This document shows, piece after piece, positions 7,171 to 49,332 of a stretch of DNA of 64,000 bases (position 1 is its first letter; each line of letters opens with the position of its first letter). The translations under genes and the position numbers were made by a program. The stretch covers positions 1 through 64,000 of the forward strand of contig CAUJDN010000051.1 in the NCBI GenBank assembly GCA_963169195.1, read 5' to 3'. The notes beneath the pieces were generated by a model. It did no database searches, had not been told where the DNA came from, and worked only from the letters and a program-made list of their open reading frames with translations. This DNA comes from Acidobacteriota bacterium. Lineage in GTDB: Bacteria > Acidobacteriota > Vicinamibacteria > Vicinamibacterales > UBA2999.

Positions 7171-9720
7171 ATGCCCGCGTCGTCCTTCCTGCGCGCCGGC
7201 GTCGGCGCCCTGATGTCGATCGCGCTGGCCGTCGACGCCGCTGACGCCCAGAACTACCCGAACGCGAAGACGGGCGGCAACTACATGCACAACTACCTGC
7301 TCCCGCCCGCGGCGAGCAGCACGCCGTGGTGGCCCTCGTGGTCGCCGGACGGCCAGTGGCTGGCCTTTGCCATGGACGGGTCGCTCTGGCGCATGCGGGT
7401 GGCCAACGGCCGGGCGGACGGCGTGGCCGAGGAGCTGCTTCGCGAGAAGGAGTATCTCTCGTCACCCGAGTGGTCGCCCGACGGCCGCTACCTGGCCTAC
7501 ACGGCCGACGACGACGGCCGGAGCATCAACGTGCGGATCGTGAACCTGGCGACCGGGGTGGTGACGGCGGTGACCACTGGTGCGGACGTCAACATCGAGC
7601 CCGCCTGGTCGCCCGACGGCCGCCGCCTCGCCTACGTCACGACCGCGCCGAACGGCTTCTACAACATTGCCGTCACCGACATCGCCGACGGGCGCACGGG
7701 CCGAACGATACAGGTGACCACGGACCACAGGTTCGGCGGGCCGCGCCTCTACTTCAGCGACGAGGACGTGCACCTGTCCCCGGCGTGGTCACCCGATGGC
7801 ACGGAGCTGCTCTTCATCTCGAATCGCGGCATTCCCCTGGGCTCGGGCGGCGTGTGGCGGGCGCCCGTGGAGGCGGACGTGATGAACGGTGGCCGGGCGC
7901 GACTGATCCACAAGGAAGAGACGCTCTACCGCACGCGCCCGCAGTGGTCGCCGGACGGCAAACGGTTCGTGTACGCGTCGCACCTCGGGGGACAGTTCAC
8001 GAACCTGTTCGTGCTGCCGACGGCGGGCGGCGAGCCCTACAAGATGACCTTCGGCGAGTACGACGCATTCCTGCCGCGCTGGTCGCCCGACGGCGAGTGG
8101 ATTGCGTACATCTCGAACGAGCAGGGGCTGCCCCAGCTGAAGCTGATCAAGGCATGGGGAGGCGAGGCGCGGCTGGCCCTCGTGACCAGGAAGCAGTGGA
8201 AGACCCCGATGGGGCGCCTCGACGTGCGCGTGGTGGACGAGCGTGGCCGCGAGACGCCGGCACGCGTCTATCACACGGCCTCCGACGGCAAGCCGTACAC
8301 GCCGTCGGACGCCTACGAGCGTCTGTCGACATTGAACCGCCATGTGTTCCACACGCGCGGCCGGTACACCACCGAGGCGCCGCCGGGGCCGTTCCGCATC
8401 GAGGCGATGAAGGGATTCGAGTACGCCGTGACCCGGCAGGACGTGGACGTGAGGGCCGGACAGACCACGCCGGTGACCGTCACCCTGAAGCGCATCGTCA
8501 ACCTGAAGGCGAAAGGATGGCGCTCGGGCAGCAATCACGTTCACATGAACTACGCGGGCAACCTCCACAACACGCCCGAGAACATCATGCTCATGAACGC
8601 GGCCGAGGACGCGGACATGGTCAGCCTGCAGATCGCGAACAAGGACAACCGGATCCTCGACTACCAGCACTACGTGCCTGGCCGCGACCACCATCCGCTC
8701 TCCACCGCCGACCGCGTGATGCACGTCGGGCAGGAGTACCGGCCCCCGTTCTACGGGCACATCTCGCTGTTCAACCTGAAGGAACACCTCATCTCGCCCT
8801 TCGTGACGGGATACGAGGGCACGGCGATCGAGAGCCTGTATCCCTCGAACACCGACATCTTCAGGTACGCGAAGCAGCAGGGAGGCATCGGCGCATACGT
8901 GCATCCGTACAACGGCGACCGGGATCCGCTGGAGACCGGCCTCGGCACCGCGAAGACGTTCCCCGTGGACGTGGCGCTCGGCGCCGTGAGCTACCACGAG
9001 CTGTGGTCGCAGAGCGCGGGTGACGCGCCCCTCATGGTGTGGTACCGGATTCTCAACACCGGCTTCCGCGTGCCGGTGACGGGCGGCGAGGACTCGATCT
9101 CCAACCTGCACCGCGTGGAGCTGGTGGGCGCATCCCGCGGCTACTTCCACCTGGGATCGGCCCCGCTGACCTGGGCCAACTGGATGAAGGCCATGCTCGC
9201 CGGGCGGGGGTTCGTCACCAACGGCCCGCTCATCGAGCTCACGGCCAATAAGGGCGTCATGCCCGGCGAGGAGATCGCGCTGCCGGCCGGAGGCGGCCCC
9301 GTATCCTTCCAGGCCACCGTGTCCACCGCGGCGCCTATCAGGCGGGTGGAGCTGGTGTCCGGAGGGGTGGTCGTCCACGGTATCGACGTGCCGGCAGGGG
9401 CGCAGACCGTGAACTTCGCGCACACGGTACAGGCTGCGAAGTCGGGCTGGTACTCCCTGAGAGCCGTGGGGACCGATCGGACGTTTCCCGTGGAGAACTC
9501 GCGCCCCCTCGCGGTGACCAACCCGATCTACGTCATGGTAGGCGGCCAGCTTATCCGCGACAAGGCCTCGGCGGACTACTTCGTGACGTGGATCGACACG
9601 CTCACCGGGATGGCCACCGCACACCCCGGCTGGCGCAGCGAGAAGGAGAAGGCGCACGTGCTGAGCCAGTTCAAGGAGGCGAGGGACATCTTCGTGGCAC
9701 GCGCGGCCGAGGCGCGCTGA
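7171..9720 (+). CDS. secreted TolB-like beta-propeller / CehA-McbA family metallohydrolase
   Basis: An 849-residue exported protein with an N-terminal signal peptide (ALMSIALAVDAADAQ). Residues about 40-340 contain at least six WSPDG-type PD40 repeats typical of TolB-like six-bladed propellers. After a carboxypeptidase-regulatory-like stretch, the C-terminal half (from about 440) resembles CehA/McbA metallohydrolases, with GSNHVHMNY and later AYVHPYN His motifs expected for a PHP/amidohydrolase-like metal site. This two-part layout is common in environmental Acidobacteriota, where such proteins are annotated as putative amidohydrolases. Substrate is not known. It follows the symporter by 5 bases. 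Confidence 0.85.
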   Translation: MPASSFLRAGVGALMSIALAVDAADAQNYPNAKTGGNYMHNYLLPPAASSTPWWPSWSPDGQWLAFAMDGSLWRMRVANGRADGVAEELLREKEYLSSPEWSPDGRYLAYTADDDGRSINVRIVNLATGVVTAVTTGADVNIEPAWSPDGRRLAYVTTAPNGFYNIAVTDIADGRTGRTIQVTTDHRFGGPRLYFSDEDVHLSPAWSPDGTELLFISNRGIPLGSGGVWRAPVEADVMNGGRARLIHKEETLYRTRPQWSPDGKRFVYASHLGGQFTNLFVLPTAGGEPYKMTFGEYDAFLPRWSPDGEWIAYISNEQGLPQLKLIKAWGGEARLALVTRKQWKTPMGRLDVRVVDERGRETPARVYHTASDGKPYTPSDAYERLSTLNRHVFHTRGRYTTEAPPGPFRIEAMKGFEYAVTRQDVDVRAGQTTPVTVTLKRIVNLKAKGWRSGSNHVHMNYAGNLHNTPENIMLMNAAEDADMVSLQIANKDNRILDYQHYVPGRDHHPLSTADRVMHVGQEYRPPFYGHISLFNLKEHLISPFVTGYEGTAIESLYPSNTDIFRYAKQQGGIGAYVHPYNGDRDPLETGLGTAKTFPVDVALGAVSYHELWSQSAGDAPLMVWYRILNTGFRVPVTGGEDSISNLHRVELVGASRGYFHLGSAPLTWANWMKAMLAGRGFVTNGPLIELTANKGVMPGEEIALPAGGGPVSFQATVSTAAPIRRVELVSGGVVVHGIDVPAGAQTVNFAHTVQAAKSGWYSLRAVGTDRTFPVENSRPLAVTNPIYVMVGGQLIRDKASADYFVTWIDTLTGMATAHPGWRSEKEKAHVLSQFKEARDIFVARAAEAR

Positions 9721-37911: not shown

Positions 37912-38202
37912 ATGGGCGAAGCACTGGGCATGGTCGAAACCAAGGGGCTCGTCGCGATGATCGAAGCGGCCGACGCCATGGTGAAGGCCGCCAAGGTGAC
38001 GTTGGTGGGTTGGGAGAAGATTGGCGCCGGCTACGTGACCGCGATCGTGCGCGGGGACGTGGCGGCCGTGAAGGCGGCCACGGATGCGGGCGCTGCCGCG
38101 GCGCGCCGCGTGGGTGAGCTCGTCTCGGTGCACGTCATCCCGCGCCCGCACGCCAACCTCGAAGACGTCCTGCCCATCGGCAAGGCCAGCGCGAAAGGCT
38201 AG
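37912..38202 (+). CDS. BMC domain shell protein (BMC-H)
   Basis: A 96-residue single-domain microcompartment shell protein that should form hexamers tiling the shell facets. It reads [57 protein letters not shown] and ends with [16 protein letters not shown], the standard PduA/CcmK/EutM layout. The KIGAGY segment lines the central pore. It is the only BMC-H in the window, followed after 18 bases by three EutN-type genes. Confidence 0.96.
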
Positions 38203-38220: not shown

Positions 38221-38490
38221 ATGCTTCTCGCGCGCATCGTCGGCACGGTCGTGGCGACCCGGAAGGACCCGCGCCTGGTCAGCAGCAAGCTGCTCCTGGC
38301 GCGGCCCGTGGACCCGCGCGGCACGGTCGAAGGCAATTATCTCGTCGCGGTCGACACCGTAGACGCGGGCGTCGGCGAGACCGTGCTCATCGTCAGCGGC
38401 AGTTCCGCGCGCATGGCCGCGGGCATGAAGGACTGCCCGGTGGACGCTGCCGTGGTCGGCATCATCGATCACGTGGACGTCTCGGAGTAG
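38221..38490 (+). CDS. EutN/CcmL family shell vertex protein (BMC-P), copy 1
   Basis: An 89-residue BMC-P protein; pentamers of this family cap the vertices of the microcompartment shell. Marks are MLLARIVGTVVATRKDPRLVSSKL in outline, VDTVDAGVGETVLIVSGSSAR and the C-terminal VDAAVVGIIDHVDV. It has the ordinary length. First of three consecutive BMC-P genes; it ends 4 bases before copy 2. Confidence 0.95.
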   Translation: MLLARIVGTVVATRKDPRLVSSKLLLARPVDPRGTVEGNYLVAVDTVDAGVGETVLIVSGSSARMAAGMKDCPVDAAVVGIIDHVDVSE

Positions 38491-38494
38491 CGGC

Positions 38495-38848
38495 ATGCAA
38501 CTCGCCCGCGTCATCGGCGACATCGTCGCCACCCGCAAGGATTCCGCATTCGACGGCGTGACGCTGCTGCTCGTGCAGCCGCTCGGCGCCGATGGGGGGG
38601 CCGTGGGCCGTCCCCTCGTCGCGGTGGACGCGGTTGGCGCCGGCGTCGGCGAGCACGTGTTCTTCGTGCGCGGCAAGGAAGCCAGCTTCCCCTTTCATCC
38701 CGTCGAGGTGCCGGCTGATGCGGGCATCGTCGGCATCGTGGATCACTGGACCACGGGCGAGCGCGACGCGGTCACCAGGCCGTCACGACGCGCCGGGGCC
38801 ACGGCTGAACGGAGCGCCGGAACCTCAGCCCCGGCGAGACGCCGATGA
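38495..38848 (+). CDS. EutN/CcmL family shell vertex protein (BMC-P), copy 2, with C-terminal extension
   Basis: A 117-residue BMC-P protein. The core (about 1-85) is canonical: QLARVIGDIVATRKD, VDAVGAGVGEHVFFVRG, ADAGIVGIVDHW. About 30 extra residues follow, rich in Arg, Ala, Ser and Pro, absent from copies 1 and 3. Its stop overlaps the ATG of copy 3 by four bases. The loop KEASFPFHPVEVP is also longer than in copy 1. Confidence 0.93.
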   Translation: MQLARVIGDIVATRKDSAFDGVTLLLVQPLGADGGAVGRPLVAVDAVGAGVGEHVFFVRGKEASFPFHPVEVPADAGIVGIVDHWTTGERDAVTRPSRRAGATAERSAGTSAPARRR

Positions 38849-39123
38849 TTCTGGCGCGCGTGGTGGGCCAGGTCGTCTCCACGATGAAGCGCCCTCAGTT
38901 CGCGGGCGCGAAGCTGCTGCTCGTGCAGCCGGAGACGCCATCCGGCGAGGCGCGGGGTGCCACGCTGATGGCGATCGACTCGGTCGGCGCCGGCGTCAGC
39001 GAGCGCGTCATCGTGGTGCTCGAGGGGCGCGCCGCCGGCGAGGCGCTGGGGCGGAAGCTCTCGCCCGTGGATGCCGCCATCGTGGGCATCGTGGACCGCG
39101 TCGACGTGGAGGCGGGACCGTGA
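38845..39123 (+). CDS. EutN/CcmL family shell vertex protein (BMC-P), copy 3
   Basis: A 92-residue BMC-P protein: ILARVVGQVVSTMKRPQFAG, LMAIDSVGAGVSERVIVVLEG, VDAAIVGIVDRVDV. Overlaps copy 2 by four bases. Three different BMC-P proteins in one locus is known from Planctomycetes/Verrucomicrobia-type and related aldolase BMCs, where the copies are thought to occupy the twelve vertices alternatively. Confidence 0.95.
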   Translation: MILARVVGQVVSTMKRPQFAGAKLLLVQPETPSGEARGATLMAIDSVGAGVSERVIVVLEGRAAGEALGRKLSPVDAAIVGIVDRVDVEAGP

Positions 39124-39145: not shown

Positions 39146-39370
39146 ATGACGGACGACGAACTCCGGCAGCTCGTGCGAAGCGCTGTCGCAAGGCACCTGG
39201 GGCCCCGACCGGCGTCGCCCTCGGCTCCGGCGGCCGCGCCTCCCACGGGTACCGCGCCGATCAGCCTCGCCCGGTACACCATTCCCCGTGCCGCGGGGGA
39301 TGTGACGTGCGTGATCGAGCCGGCGGTTCGCTGCAATCACTGTGGCTACTGCCAGTGCCACGGGCACTAG
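39146..39370 (+). CDS. 74-residue protein: encapsulation-like helix plus C-terminal Cys/His cluster
   Basis: I recognise no family. Residues 2-18 (TDDELRQLVRSAVARHL) form an amphipathic helix very like encapsulation peptides such as the N-terminus of PduP, followed by a Pro/Ala/Ser linker (20-38). The C-terminal part has C55 and then the dense cluster CNHCGYCQCHGH, C63-C66-C69-C71-H72-H74, ending at the last residue. This suggests a small metal-binding or Fe-S cargo directed to the shell lumen. ATG 39146 is 22 bases after the third BMC-P gene; the hydroxyacid dehydrogenase starts 35 bases downstream. Coding status is supported by its position in a tight gene run and by the two well-formed ends. 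Confidence 0.78.
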   Translation: MTDDELRQLVRSAVARHLGPRPASPSAPAAAPPTGTAPISLARYTIPRAAGDVTCVIEPAVRCNHCGYCQCHGH

Positions 39371-39405: not shown

Positions 39406-40350
39406 GTGGGACCGGGCGTTCTCGTCACGCGCAAGCTGCCCTCCTCCGTGATCGCACGGCTCGAGGCTTCGTGCCTGGTGGATCTCTGGACCGCGCGCGA
39501 GGCCATGCCGCGCGAGGAGCTGCTCTCGCGCGTGGCGGGCAAGGGCGCGCTGGTGTGCCTGCTCACCGACACGGTGGATGCCGCGGTGCTCGATGCGGCG
39601 GGGCCGTCGCTCAAGGTCGTGGCGAACGTCGCCGTCGGCTACAACAATATCGACGTCGCGGCGTGTCGCGCCCGAGGCGTCGTGGCGACCAACACACCCG
39701 ACGTGCTGACCAACGCCTGCGCGGACTTCACGTGGGGGCTCATTCTGGCCGTCACCCGGCGCCTGGGTGAAGGCGAGCGGGTGGTGCGCGCGGGGAAGTG
39801 GCAGGGCTGGGGCCTGGACTACATGCTGGGCATGGAGCTCCGCGGCAAGCAGCTTGGCGTCGTGGGCATGGGGCGCATCGGGCAGGCCGTGGCCGGGAAG
39901 GCGCCCGCGTTCGGCATGCGCGTCGCGTACACGGCGCGAAGGCCAGTCGACATGCCGGGCGCGGAGCACATGCCACTCGACCGCCTGCTGGCGAGCTCCG
40001 ACGTCGTCTCCCTGCACTGCCCGATGACCGACGAGACCCGCCACCTGATCGATCAGAAGGCACTCCTTCGGATGAAGCGGACGGCGTATCTCATCAACAC
40101 CGCGCGAGGGCCGGTGGTGGACGAGGCGGCGCTGGCCTGGGCGCTGAAGGAGGGACGTATCGCCGGGGCAGCGCTGGACGTCTACGAGCGCGAACCGATC
40201 GTCCACCCCGACCTGCTGCCGCTCGAGAACGTCCTGCTCATTCCGCACCTGGCGAGCGCCACGACCGAGACGAGGACCGCCATGGCCGACCTCGCCGTCT
40301 CCAACGCGCTTGCCGTGCTGGCGGGAAGGCCCCCGCTGACGCCCGTGTAG
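39406..40350 (+). CDS. D-2-hydroxyacid dehydrogenase (glyoxylate/hydroxypyruvate reductase-like)
   Basis: A 314-residue NAD(P)H-dependent dehydrogenase. Visible marks: VANVAVGYNNIDV, the Rossmann GVVGMGRIGQAVAGKA, the catalytic Arg in INTARGPVVDE, Glu in ALDVYEREP, and His in LIPHLASATTETR. The sequence is close to the GyaR/GrhA glyoxylate-hydroxypyruvate reductase group. Start GTG 39406 with a G-rich ribosome binding site five bases before; the open frame extends further left in the previous gene. Placement right after the BMC genes suggests a link, perhaps cofactor recycling or reduction of a BMC product, but no encapsulation peptide is visible. Confidence 0.9.
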   Translation: MGPGVLVTRKLPSSVIARLEASCLVDLWTAREAMPREELLSRVAGKGALVCLLTDTVDAAVLDAAGPSLKVVANVAVGYNNIDVAACRARGVVATNTPDVLTNACADFTWGLILAVTRRLGEGERVVRAGKWQGWGLDYMLGMELRGKQLGVVGMGRIGQAVAGKAPAFGMRVAYTARRPVDMPGAEHMPLDRLLASSDVVSLHCPMTDETRHLIDQKALLRMKRTAYLINTARGPVVDEAALAWALKEGRIAGAALDVYEREPIVHPDLLPLENVLLIPHLASATTETRTAMADLAVSNALAVLAGRPPLTPV

Positions 40351-47120: not shown

Positions 47121-47888
47121 CTATCTGGGCGCCATGCGGAGTGCGCCGTCGATGCGGATGACCTCGCCGTTCAGCATCTCGTTCTCGATGACGTGGCGCG
47201 CGAGCGCCGCGTATTCGGCGGGGCGGCCCAGCCGGGACGGGAACGGCACCTGCTGGCCCAGCGATACGCGGGCCGCCTCCGGAAGCGCCGCCAGCAGCGG
47301 CGTGTCGAAGATGCCGGGCGCGATGGTGACGCAGCGGATGCCGAGCGCGGCGAACTCGCGCGCCACCGGCAGCGTGAGCCCGACGATGCCGCCCTTGGAC
47401 GCCGCATAGGCCGGCTGGCCAATCTGGCCGTCGAAGGCGGCGATCGAGGCCGTGTTGATGATCACGCCGCGCTCGCCGGTTTCGAGCGGCGTGTTCTGCG
47501 CCATCACCGCCGCCGCCAGGCGGATCACGTTGAACGTGCCTACCAGGTTCACGCGGACCGTCTTCTCGAAGAGATCCAGCGGGTGCGGGCCGTTCCTGCC
47601 CAGGACCTTGGCGGCGGGGCCGATGCCCGCGGCGTTGACCACGCCGTAGAGGTTGCCGAAGGCCGAGACGGCCAGATCAACGGCTGCCTGGACCTGCTCC
47701 TCGCTGGTGACGTCCGCCCGTGCGAACCGTGCCTGGACGCCGAGCGCCTGCTCGGCGGCCCGGCCCGTCTCGGCGTTGACGTCCAGCAGCACGGTGTTGC
47801 CGCCCGATGCCAGGATGGCTTCCGCCGCCGCGCGCCCCAGTCCCGAGGCACCGCCGGTCACGATGAACGTGTGTCCTGAGATGTGCAT
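47121..47888 (-). CDS. SDR family NAD(P)-dependent oxidoreductase (type 2 3-hydroxyacyl-CoA dehydrogenase-like)
   Basis: A 255-residue short-chain dehydrogenase. Cofactor motif [15 protein letters not shown] with Asp in LLDVNAETG, favouring [11 protein letters not shown]; catalytic Ser region [11 protein letters not shown] and YAASKGG. The sequence as a whole ([12 protein letters not shown]..., [20 protein letters not shown]) is like HSD17B10-type 3-hydroxyacyl-CoA dehydrogenases. It is divergent from the aldehyde dehydrogenase gene, only 22 bases apart. Confidence 0.9.
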
Positions 47889-47901
47889 GATGGGTGAGGA
47901 C

Positions 47902-47907
47902 TACAAT
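47902..47907 (+). promoter_or_regulatory. TACAAT -10 element directly before the aldehyde dehydrogenase
   Basis: TACAAT ends 3 bases before the ATG at 47911 and 9 before the ATG at 47917. If it is a real -10 hexamer the transcript would start at or near 47914, which makes 47917 the likely start codon of a leaderless mRNA. Confidence 0.4.
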
Positions 47908-47910
47908 TGT

Positions 47911-49332
47911 ATGCCCATGCATTCCCACGACAAGCACTACTACGACGGCGCCTGGCAGGTCTCCATGGGTGCCGACGCCATCGAGGTTCTCTCGTCTGCC
48001 ACCGAGGAAGTGGTCGGCCGTGTGCCCCGCGGCGGCGTCGAGGACGTGGACCGTGCGGTGAAGGCCGCGCGCCGCGCGTTCGAGTCGTGGAGCCGCATTC
48101 CGGTGGAGGAGCGCGCGCAGTGGCTCGAGAAGCTGGCAGCCGCCCTGAAGCCGCGCGTGCCGCAGATCGCGGAGGTCATCTCCCACGAGGTGGGCACGGC
48201 CGCCGGGTATTCGAAGAAGGTGCAGGCCGAGTTCCCCGTGACGATGGTCGGGATGAACGCGCGCTTCATCCGGAACGCAAGGCTCGAGGAAGACCTGGGC
48301 AACTCCCTCGTCGTCAAGGAGCCGGTCGGCATCGTCGGGGGCATCACGCCGTGGAACTATCCCCTGCACCAGGTGGTCTGCAAGGTCGGGCCGGCACTGG
48401 CGGCCGGCTGCACGGTGGTGCTCAAGCCCGCGGAGGCCGCGCCGCTGAGCGCGTTCATGCTGGCGGAGGCCGCGCACGAGATCGGCCTGCCCGCCGGGGT
48501 CCTCAACATCGTCTCGGGAGATGGGCCCGTCGTGGGCGAGGCCATCGTGACCCACCCCGGCGTCGACATGGTCAGCTTCACGGGCTCCCTCCGGGCCGGG
48601 CGCCGCGTGGCCGCGCTCGCGGGTGACGGAATCAAGAAGGTGTGTCTCGAGCTCGGCGGCAAGTCCGCCTTCATCGTGCTGGACGACGCGCCGTTCGACA
48701 AGGCCGTCCCGGCGGGCGTGAACAACTGCATGCAGAACTCGGGGCAGACGTGCTCGGCGTGGACGCGCATGCTCGTGCCGCGCGGGCGGCACGACGAGGC
48801 CGTGGAACTCGCGAAGGCGCAGCTCGAGAAGCTCACACTGGGCGATCCCTTCGACCCGAACACCAGGCTCGGCCCGCTGTCGTCCGCGAAACAGCGCGAG
48901 ACGGTCCTCGGCTACGTCGAGAAGGGGCGTGCGGAGGGCGCGACGCTCGTGGTCGGCGGGGGCCGGCCTGCCTCCCTGCCGACCGGGTATTACGTGGAGC
49001 CGACGATCTTCTCGAACGTGTCTCCGTCGATGACGATCGCGCAGGAGGAGATCTTCGGGCCGGTGCTGTCGATCATCCCCTACGACACCGAGGCGGAGGC
49101 GATTCGCATCGCCAACGACTCGATCTACGGCCTGGCCGGCGGCGTGTGGGCCGGGACGAAGGAGCACGCGATGGCCGTGGCGCGGCAGTTCCGGACGGGG
49201 CAGGTCGACATCAACGGCGGCCGCTACAACCCGCTGGCGCCGTTCGGCGGCTACAAGAAGTCCGGTGTCGGGCGCGAGATTGGACCACTGGCCCTGGACG
49301 AGTTCTTCCAGCTCAAGGCCATCCAGCAGTAG
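47911..49332 (+). CDS. aldehyde dehydrogenase family protein
   Basis: A 473-residue NAD(P)-dependent aldehyde dehydrogenase (ATG 47911; ATG 47917 equally possible). Cofactor site [26 protein letters not shown] in outline; catalytic Glu in [11 protein letters not shown]; catalytic Cys in [27 protein letters not shown] near the C-terminus. It resembles betaine/aminobutyraldehyde-type enzymes. No encapsulation peptide is seen at the His-rich N-terminus, so I do not count it as a microcompartment enzyme although shell genes lie 8 kb away. It ends 14 bases before the next gene. Confidence 0.93.

Follow-up and report, generated by a model that had tools for sequence, protein, structure and literature searches.

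A cysteine-tailed protein family of Acidobacteriota encoded beside BMC-P genes: a candidate assembly or linker protein of ACI-type microcompartments

What might a protein of only 74 residues, with a helix at one end and a cluster of cysteines at the other, be doing in a bacterial microcompartment locus rich in shell genes? The question is raised by a small gene in the window, i.e., the whole stretch of 64,000 nucleotides of contig G000:C51 that was analyzed, where it lies between the third of three BMC-P genes and a D-2-hydroxyacid dehydrogenase-like gene (Table 1). A sequence-only reading had assigned this gene to a microcompartment locus, and the aldolase, BMC-H gene and BMC-P triplet upstream of it, with their ACI-like arrangement, agree with that assignment. 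Translation of 39146–39370 on the plus strand gives exactly the 74 residues then proposed, MTDDELRQLVRSAVARHLG...CVIEPAVRCNHCGYCQCHGH followed by a stop (in full, MTDDELRQLVRSAVARHLGPRPASPSAPAAAPPTGTAPISLARYTIPRAAGDVTCVIEPAVRCNHCGYCQCHGH), and homologues are present in related genomes. A chance open reading frame is ruled out by these homologues, by the matches to the tail pattern when set against its control and by pN/pS; on such sequence criteria, the stretch is a real gene belonging to a family, more than a local oddity.

Table 1. Features of the microcompartment locus in the window and parts of the 74-residue product
Feature	Position	Strand	Basis
Class II aldolase (PF00596) with C-terminal encapsulation-peptide-like helix	36948..37814	+	E 4e-49
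BMC-H shell protein	37912..38202	+	sequence; syntenic in relatives
BMC-P 1 (PF03319)	38221..38490	+	Pfam
BMC-P 2 (PF03319)	38495..38848	+	Pfam
BMC-P 3 (PF03319), immediately 5' of the 74-aa gene	38845..39123	+	Pfam; synteny
74-aa Cys-tailed BMC protein gene	39146..39370	+	translation; homologues
Residues 1-19, encapsulation-peptide-like helix	39146..39202	+	AF2 helix 3-18, pLDDT about 81-92
Residues 20-50, variable Pro/Ala linker	39203..39295	+	pN/pS 0.70
Residues 55-74, Cys tail C-x2-E-x4-C-x2-C-x2-C-x3-G-H plus stop	39308..39370	+	
D-2-hydroxyacid dehydrogenase-like gene, start codon uncertain	39406..40350	+	sequence, synteny

The three BMC-P genes match PF03319 with E-values from 5e-31 to 3e-26, the aldolase carries its C-terminal helix (TYRELTALIEDAVRQLR; hydrophobic moment p 0.03) after a Pro/Ala linker, and the dehydrogenase-like gene is, from its sequence and synteny, a putative member of the pfam00389/02826 type. 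As set out in the article text of Sutter et al. 2021 (PMC8217296), the ACI locus combines a class II aldolase with a C-terminal encapsulation peptide, a hydroxyacid dehydrogenase, a BMC-P triplet and BMC-H with an AldDh on a satellite and 'several proteins of unknown function'. The aldolase with its encapsulation peptide, the BMC-P triplet, BMC-H and the satellite AldDh all have matches here, and the locus, as read from its genes, fits that published definition of an ACI-type microcompartment. On a separate contig of the same genome (G000:C61; L188, about 7241–9436, minus strand), a second BMC-H gene lies beside the gene of a 605-aa aldehyde dehydrogenase (PF00171); with a long Pro/Ala linker and a CEDDVRTAVKEGRKILVGERTIITPAARD segment at its C-terminus, this enzyme agrees with the satellite AldDh of ACI loci. 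The window itself encodes a further PF00171 enzyme (E 5e-159), an aldehyde dehydrogenase with no obvious encapsulation peptide, at 47653–49332, about 7 kb 3' of the BMC cluster. Scans around the locus returned one minus-strand promoter-like match, no terminator and no Rfam RNA family.

The small protein itself was described from the outset as a helix with an encapsulation-peptide-like pattern followed by a Pro/Ala-rich linker, and both elements are present, the linker being variable. The helix is modeled by AF2 with a pLDDT of 92 over residues 1–10 and 81 over residues 11–20, and its R7 is invariant across the window's order; both AF2 models are confident for this helix only and have low pTM (0.27 and 0.30). 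The amphipathicity test was uninformative, as the hydrophobic moment of the helix was not higher than that of shuffles (p 0.44). Within the linker, the Ser of an HxS motif (S40) is conserved, being invariant in alignment A4. Among 13 close relatives, pN/pS by Nei-Gojobori counts is lowest in the tail (0.15), intermediate in the helix (0.44) and highest in the linker (0.70); with synonymous sites nearly saturated, these ratios are to be compared with one another and not taken as absolute values. Judged by these ratios, the Cys tail is under strong purifying selection; for the Cys/His set a dN/dS comparison had been suggested, and pN/pS serves in its place.

The exact ligand set had to be revised. 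In an alignment of 29 sequences, R7, C55, E58, C63, H65, C66, G67, C69 and G73 are invariant and H74 nearly so, with position 71 occupied by C, S, T or A and position 72 by H, Y or L. The initial motif, C-x2-C-x2-C-x-C-H-x-H, had rightly picked out C63, C66 and C69, which are kept in the order, but had overlooked C55 and had included C71 and H72; a set containing the latter two is ruled out, as both vary among homologues. From the aligned sequences, the conserved tail is C55-x2-[E/D]-x4-C63-x2-C66-x2-C69-x3-G-[H/F/Y]-COOH. All four of its cysteines are invariant within the window's order. Beyond the order, some members have N, Q, R or E in place of the His at residue 65, the stretch from the first cysteine to the second can be longer by one residue, the acidic residue can be Asp, and Ser replaces the third cysteine (C66) in families f16, f17, f19, f26 and f52 (e.g., CVGSGQCRTLGH, CVSSGACEMRGF and CCGSGRCKTLGF). 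The core that does not vary in the members examined comprises C55, the acidic residue 58, C63, C69 and G73; the last residue is nearly always H, F or Y, with the L040 member ending in L. That the cysteines form the very end of the protein, as first read, holds generally, for a stop directly follows the motif in 34 of 34 true matches of a pattern that did not require one.

The family extends well past the window. Among 99 related genomes, the search recovered convincing homologues in 71, to which inspection by hand added G022, missed by the search. A degenerate DNA pattern for the tail (C-x2-E-x4-C-x-H-C-x2-C-x3-G-[HYF]-stop) was present in 41 of 396 Acidobacteriota genomes, each of them with BMC-P genes (hypergeometric 7e-18, ignoring relatedness), and its reversed control in none. 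The CDHC pattern without the stop, applied to 84,980 species with one genome per species, matched 35 contigs, 34 of which belong to the family and were nearly all deposited as Acidobacteria; a match on a Chitinophagaceae contig with no BMC was rejected as a chance hit. Two metagenome-assembled genomes with this pattern, L132 and L102, were deposited as Acidimicrobiia and carry ACI-like loci; the contig of L102 probably corresponds to G061:C14 of the window's order, and its deposited name looks wrong. A profile that included the divergent forms matched 35 of 80 BMC-positive genomes vs 1 of 80 BMC-negative ones, the sole exception being a fragment in a 67%-complete genome whose genus includes BMC-positive genomes. 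The total comes to 113 Acidobacteriota genomes, in most of which the gene adjoins BMC-P genes, so that the motif does recur beside BMC genes elsewhere, where a profile search had been advised. Outside Acidobacteriota, the searches covered the CDHC tail form and plasmids; tblastn against plasmids with the 74-aa protein, a long form and tails gave nothing useful. The 74-aa form has no match among Pfam or NCBIfam models, in keeping with the early remark that no protein of this form had been described, the ACI locus itself being published. It is apparently not described in the text of PMC8217296, the supplementary tables of which may list the gene without comment. The family is both widespread in Acidobacteriota and previously undescribed.

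Its neighborhood is equally consistent. The order aldolase, BMC-H, BMC-P1, P2, P3, 74-aa gene and (dehydrogenase) is kept across the window's order; the dehydrogenase is syntenic in many relatives and was not found at that place in L061–L063, in which the Cys-tail gene is retained even so. The split loci L052, L121, L190, L193 and L195 have the Cys-tail gene beside BMC-P2/P3 and apart from both aldolase and BMC-H. Some genomes of the Pyrinomonadaceae type have it as a single, unlinked gene; in G326, a pdxJ-like and a lemA-like gene flank it, and the distance to a BMC-P gene is about 28 kb. Among such genomes, the gene lies beyond reach of the ACI genes in L055 (7393–7665; a lone gene flanked by pdxJ-like and lemA-like genes), L108, L112, L117, L119, L124 and L135. 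Within the window's order, all 72 carriers have BMC-P, as against 12 of 27 non-carriers that lack it (Fisher 2e-8, ignoring relatedness). The Cys-tail gene depends genomically on BMC-P and is linked most closely to BMC-P3.

The reverse does not hold, since 15 non-carriers have BMC-P: nine in f4 and f11, five in f8 and G003, whose locus ends at a contig break. The nine in f4 and f11 appear to have another locus type, judged from the differing layout of the two inspected loci without the gene (L066 and L187) and, for the rest, from family and BMC-P spacing. A general BMC marker is ruled out, as the f4 and f11 genomes have BMC-P and no copy. In L066, L071 and L187, about 2 kb separates BMC-P1 from the BMC-P2/P3 pair and the Cys-tail gene is absent; these are probably a different compartment type. 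The f8 genomes (G049, G070, G079 and G087 among the five) have an ACI-like locus with no detectable Cys-tail gene, from which it follows that the protein is common but not indispensable.

In other families, the tail forms the C-terminus of a longer BMC protein. In G340, G297, G115, G100 and G140, the gene that follows the BMC-P genes encodes about 146–242 aa, with an extra domain between the N-terminal helix and the Cys tail. The alignment of G340 with G297 reaches the last residue with the tails in register (E 7e-10), and that with G115 does likewise (E 9e-6). Residues 6–160 of G340 match NCBIfam TIGR02536 (E 7e-10) at 38.9 bits, below the curated cut-off of 152.6 bits, and the 74-aa form has no such match. 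From these alignments, the 74-aa protein is best seen as the short form of a BMC protein that has a TIGR02536-like long form. It had been granted that homologues might reveal an N-terminal piece of a longer enzyme; that is ruled out, as the tail always ends the protein, even though longer forms with a further domain occur.

Taken together, we consider the 74-aa protein to be possibly, at a probability of roughly 0.42, a PduM-like assembly or linker protein of the ACI compartment with a putative metal-binding clasp. The N-terminal helix would act as an encapsulation peptide docking the protein to the enzyme core or shell, and the flexible linker would span from it to a C-terminal Cys3-4 metal knuckle; the knuckle, ending in the conserved Gly-His/Phe/Tyr carboxyl terminus, would clasp a partner, for which the BMC-P3 vertex region or an enzyme of the core is the most plausible candidate, so that the protein would join two parts of the compartment. 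The tail probably binds metal, with Zn(II) and [4Fe-4S] about equally likely. This reading is favored because the gene order is kept and split loci keep the gene with BMC-P2/P3; because carriers always have BMC-P, even when, as in G326, the gene is unlinked; because PduM has a part in joining shell to core and pduM abuts pduN; because the long relatives align in tail register and G340 matches TIGR02536; because the gene is retained where the dehydrogenase is missing from its usual place (L061–L063); and because purifying selection on the tail is strong and the locus shows no gene for a redox partner. Counted against it are the tailless E. coli PduM, the non-significant match of the long form G115 to PF15953, the PduM family (E 0.17), the sub-threshold TIGR02536 score of G340, the helix p of 0.44 against shuffles, the low pTM and the f8 loci with no copy. 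A bolder version, speculative and improbable, would see in the protein a new kind of assembly factor: an encapsulation peptide fused straight to a metal-cluster tail with an invariable Gly-aromatic/His carboxyl end, by which it would grip the pentameric vertex or the enzyme core and so make assembly metal- or redox-dependent.

The foremost alternative, though still an unlikely one, is that the protein would be a lumenal [4Fe-4S] mini-ferredoxin or redox sensor, in which C63-x2-C66-x2-C69 and C55 ligate an electron-exchanging cluster. CxxCGxC with one remote Cys is the classical [4Fe-4S] arrangement, and ferredoxins also tolerate change at the central Cys position, which is the variable ligand here; the CxxCGxC pattern and the central Cys-to-Ser change in several lineages together lean to Fe-S. 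Two weak matches to the EFR1 ferredoxin model (E 0.009 and 0.02) point the same way, with E-values near 0.01 and phylogeny uncorrected. However, no PduS-like, flavoprotein, ferredoxin or ferredoxin-reductase gene was seen in the locus, a search of 177,635 PDB sequences with the tail profile brought up no ferredoxin at E<=10, and the known locus enzymes would, as we presume from their families, be NAD- or CoA-linked. The sequence-only reading had envisaged a lumenal role in electron transfer or metal delivery; that idea is weakened by this want of a reductase or ferredoxin partner gene in the locus.

Next in standing, and likewise unlikely, is a structural zinc knuckle that would fold the tail into an interaction module for binding one cargo enzyme, with no redox or assembly role. 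In the PDB, the tail profile scored best against the structural-zinc loops of two dehydrogenases of the sorbitol/idonate type (5vm2, E 0.018; 6dkh, E 0.4), and two column-permuted controls that preserved the Cys spacing matched unrelated proteins (E 0.41 and 4.1), a result that leans to zinc. Yet those E-values are marginal, the fourth Cys lies upstream (C55) and not downstream as in the dehydrogenases, and the loss of C66 in several lineages leaves three cysteines. Derivation from a medium-chain dehydrogenase fragment was ruled out, the likeness being limited to the motif: the 74-aa protein has no Pfam dehydrogenase match, and the PDB likeness is confined to about 13 residues.

A metal (zinc) chaperone or thiol relay, supplying the class II aldolase, a metal-dependent enzyme, or handling aldehyde or CoA in the shell, is the least probable: linkage to the aldolase in the order and the lack of a PduL-type PTAC (PF06130) in 12 carrier genomes speak for it, but split loci separate the gene from the aldolase while BMC-P remains beside it, and the aldolase persists in four f8 genomes in which no Cys-tail gene is detectable. 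The 12 carriers without PF06130 phosphotransacylase include G000 itself, and this lack leaves CoA recycling in the compartment type unexplained.

Acidobacteriota, the hosts of ACI compartments, can dominate soils, and the family offers a sequence handle on a missing ACI part, a conserved accessory with a metal-type tail encoded after the BMC-P vertex genes. With minimal 74-aa forms linked to longer TIGR02536-like proteins, a tie between core and shell becomes testable in a very small module, and engineering would gain an attractive linker in a 74-aa non-enzyme that combines an encapsulation-peptide-like helix with a metal tail.

Among known systems, several offer partial parallels. The zinc loop of medium-chain dehydrogenases of the sorbitol/idonate type shares the IEPxVxCxHCxYC motif with the tail over about 13 residues (E 0.018), whereas the 74-aa protein lacks the dehydrogenase domain. 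PduT and PduK have Fe-S or Cys motifs as well, but on BMC-domain shell proteins, and the 74-aa protein has no BMC domain. The microcompartment family TIGR02536 ('eut_hyp') resembles the long relative G340 over most of its length; the match excludes the tail, and the short form is without that domain. With PduM (PF15953/TIGR04493), the comparison is one of kind: homology to E. coli PduM is not supported, its similarity to the long form G340 not being significant, the 74-aa form does not match PF15953/TIGR04493, and the Cys tail is absent from E. coli PduM. PduM has a proven N-terminal signal sequence and is associated with the enzyme core, and without it core and shell come partly apart (PMC9132943, PMC12108088); its gene in E. 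coli directly adjoins the BMC-P gene pduN. Both are small non-enzymes with an N-terminal signal sequence, putative in the case of the 74-aa protein, whose genes lie beside BMC-P.
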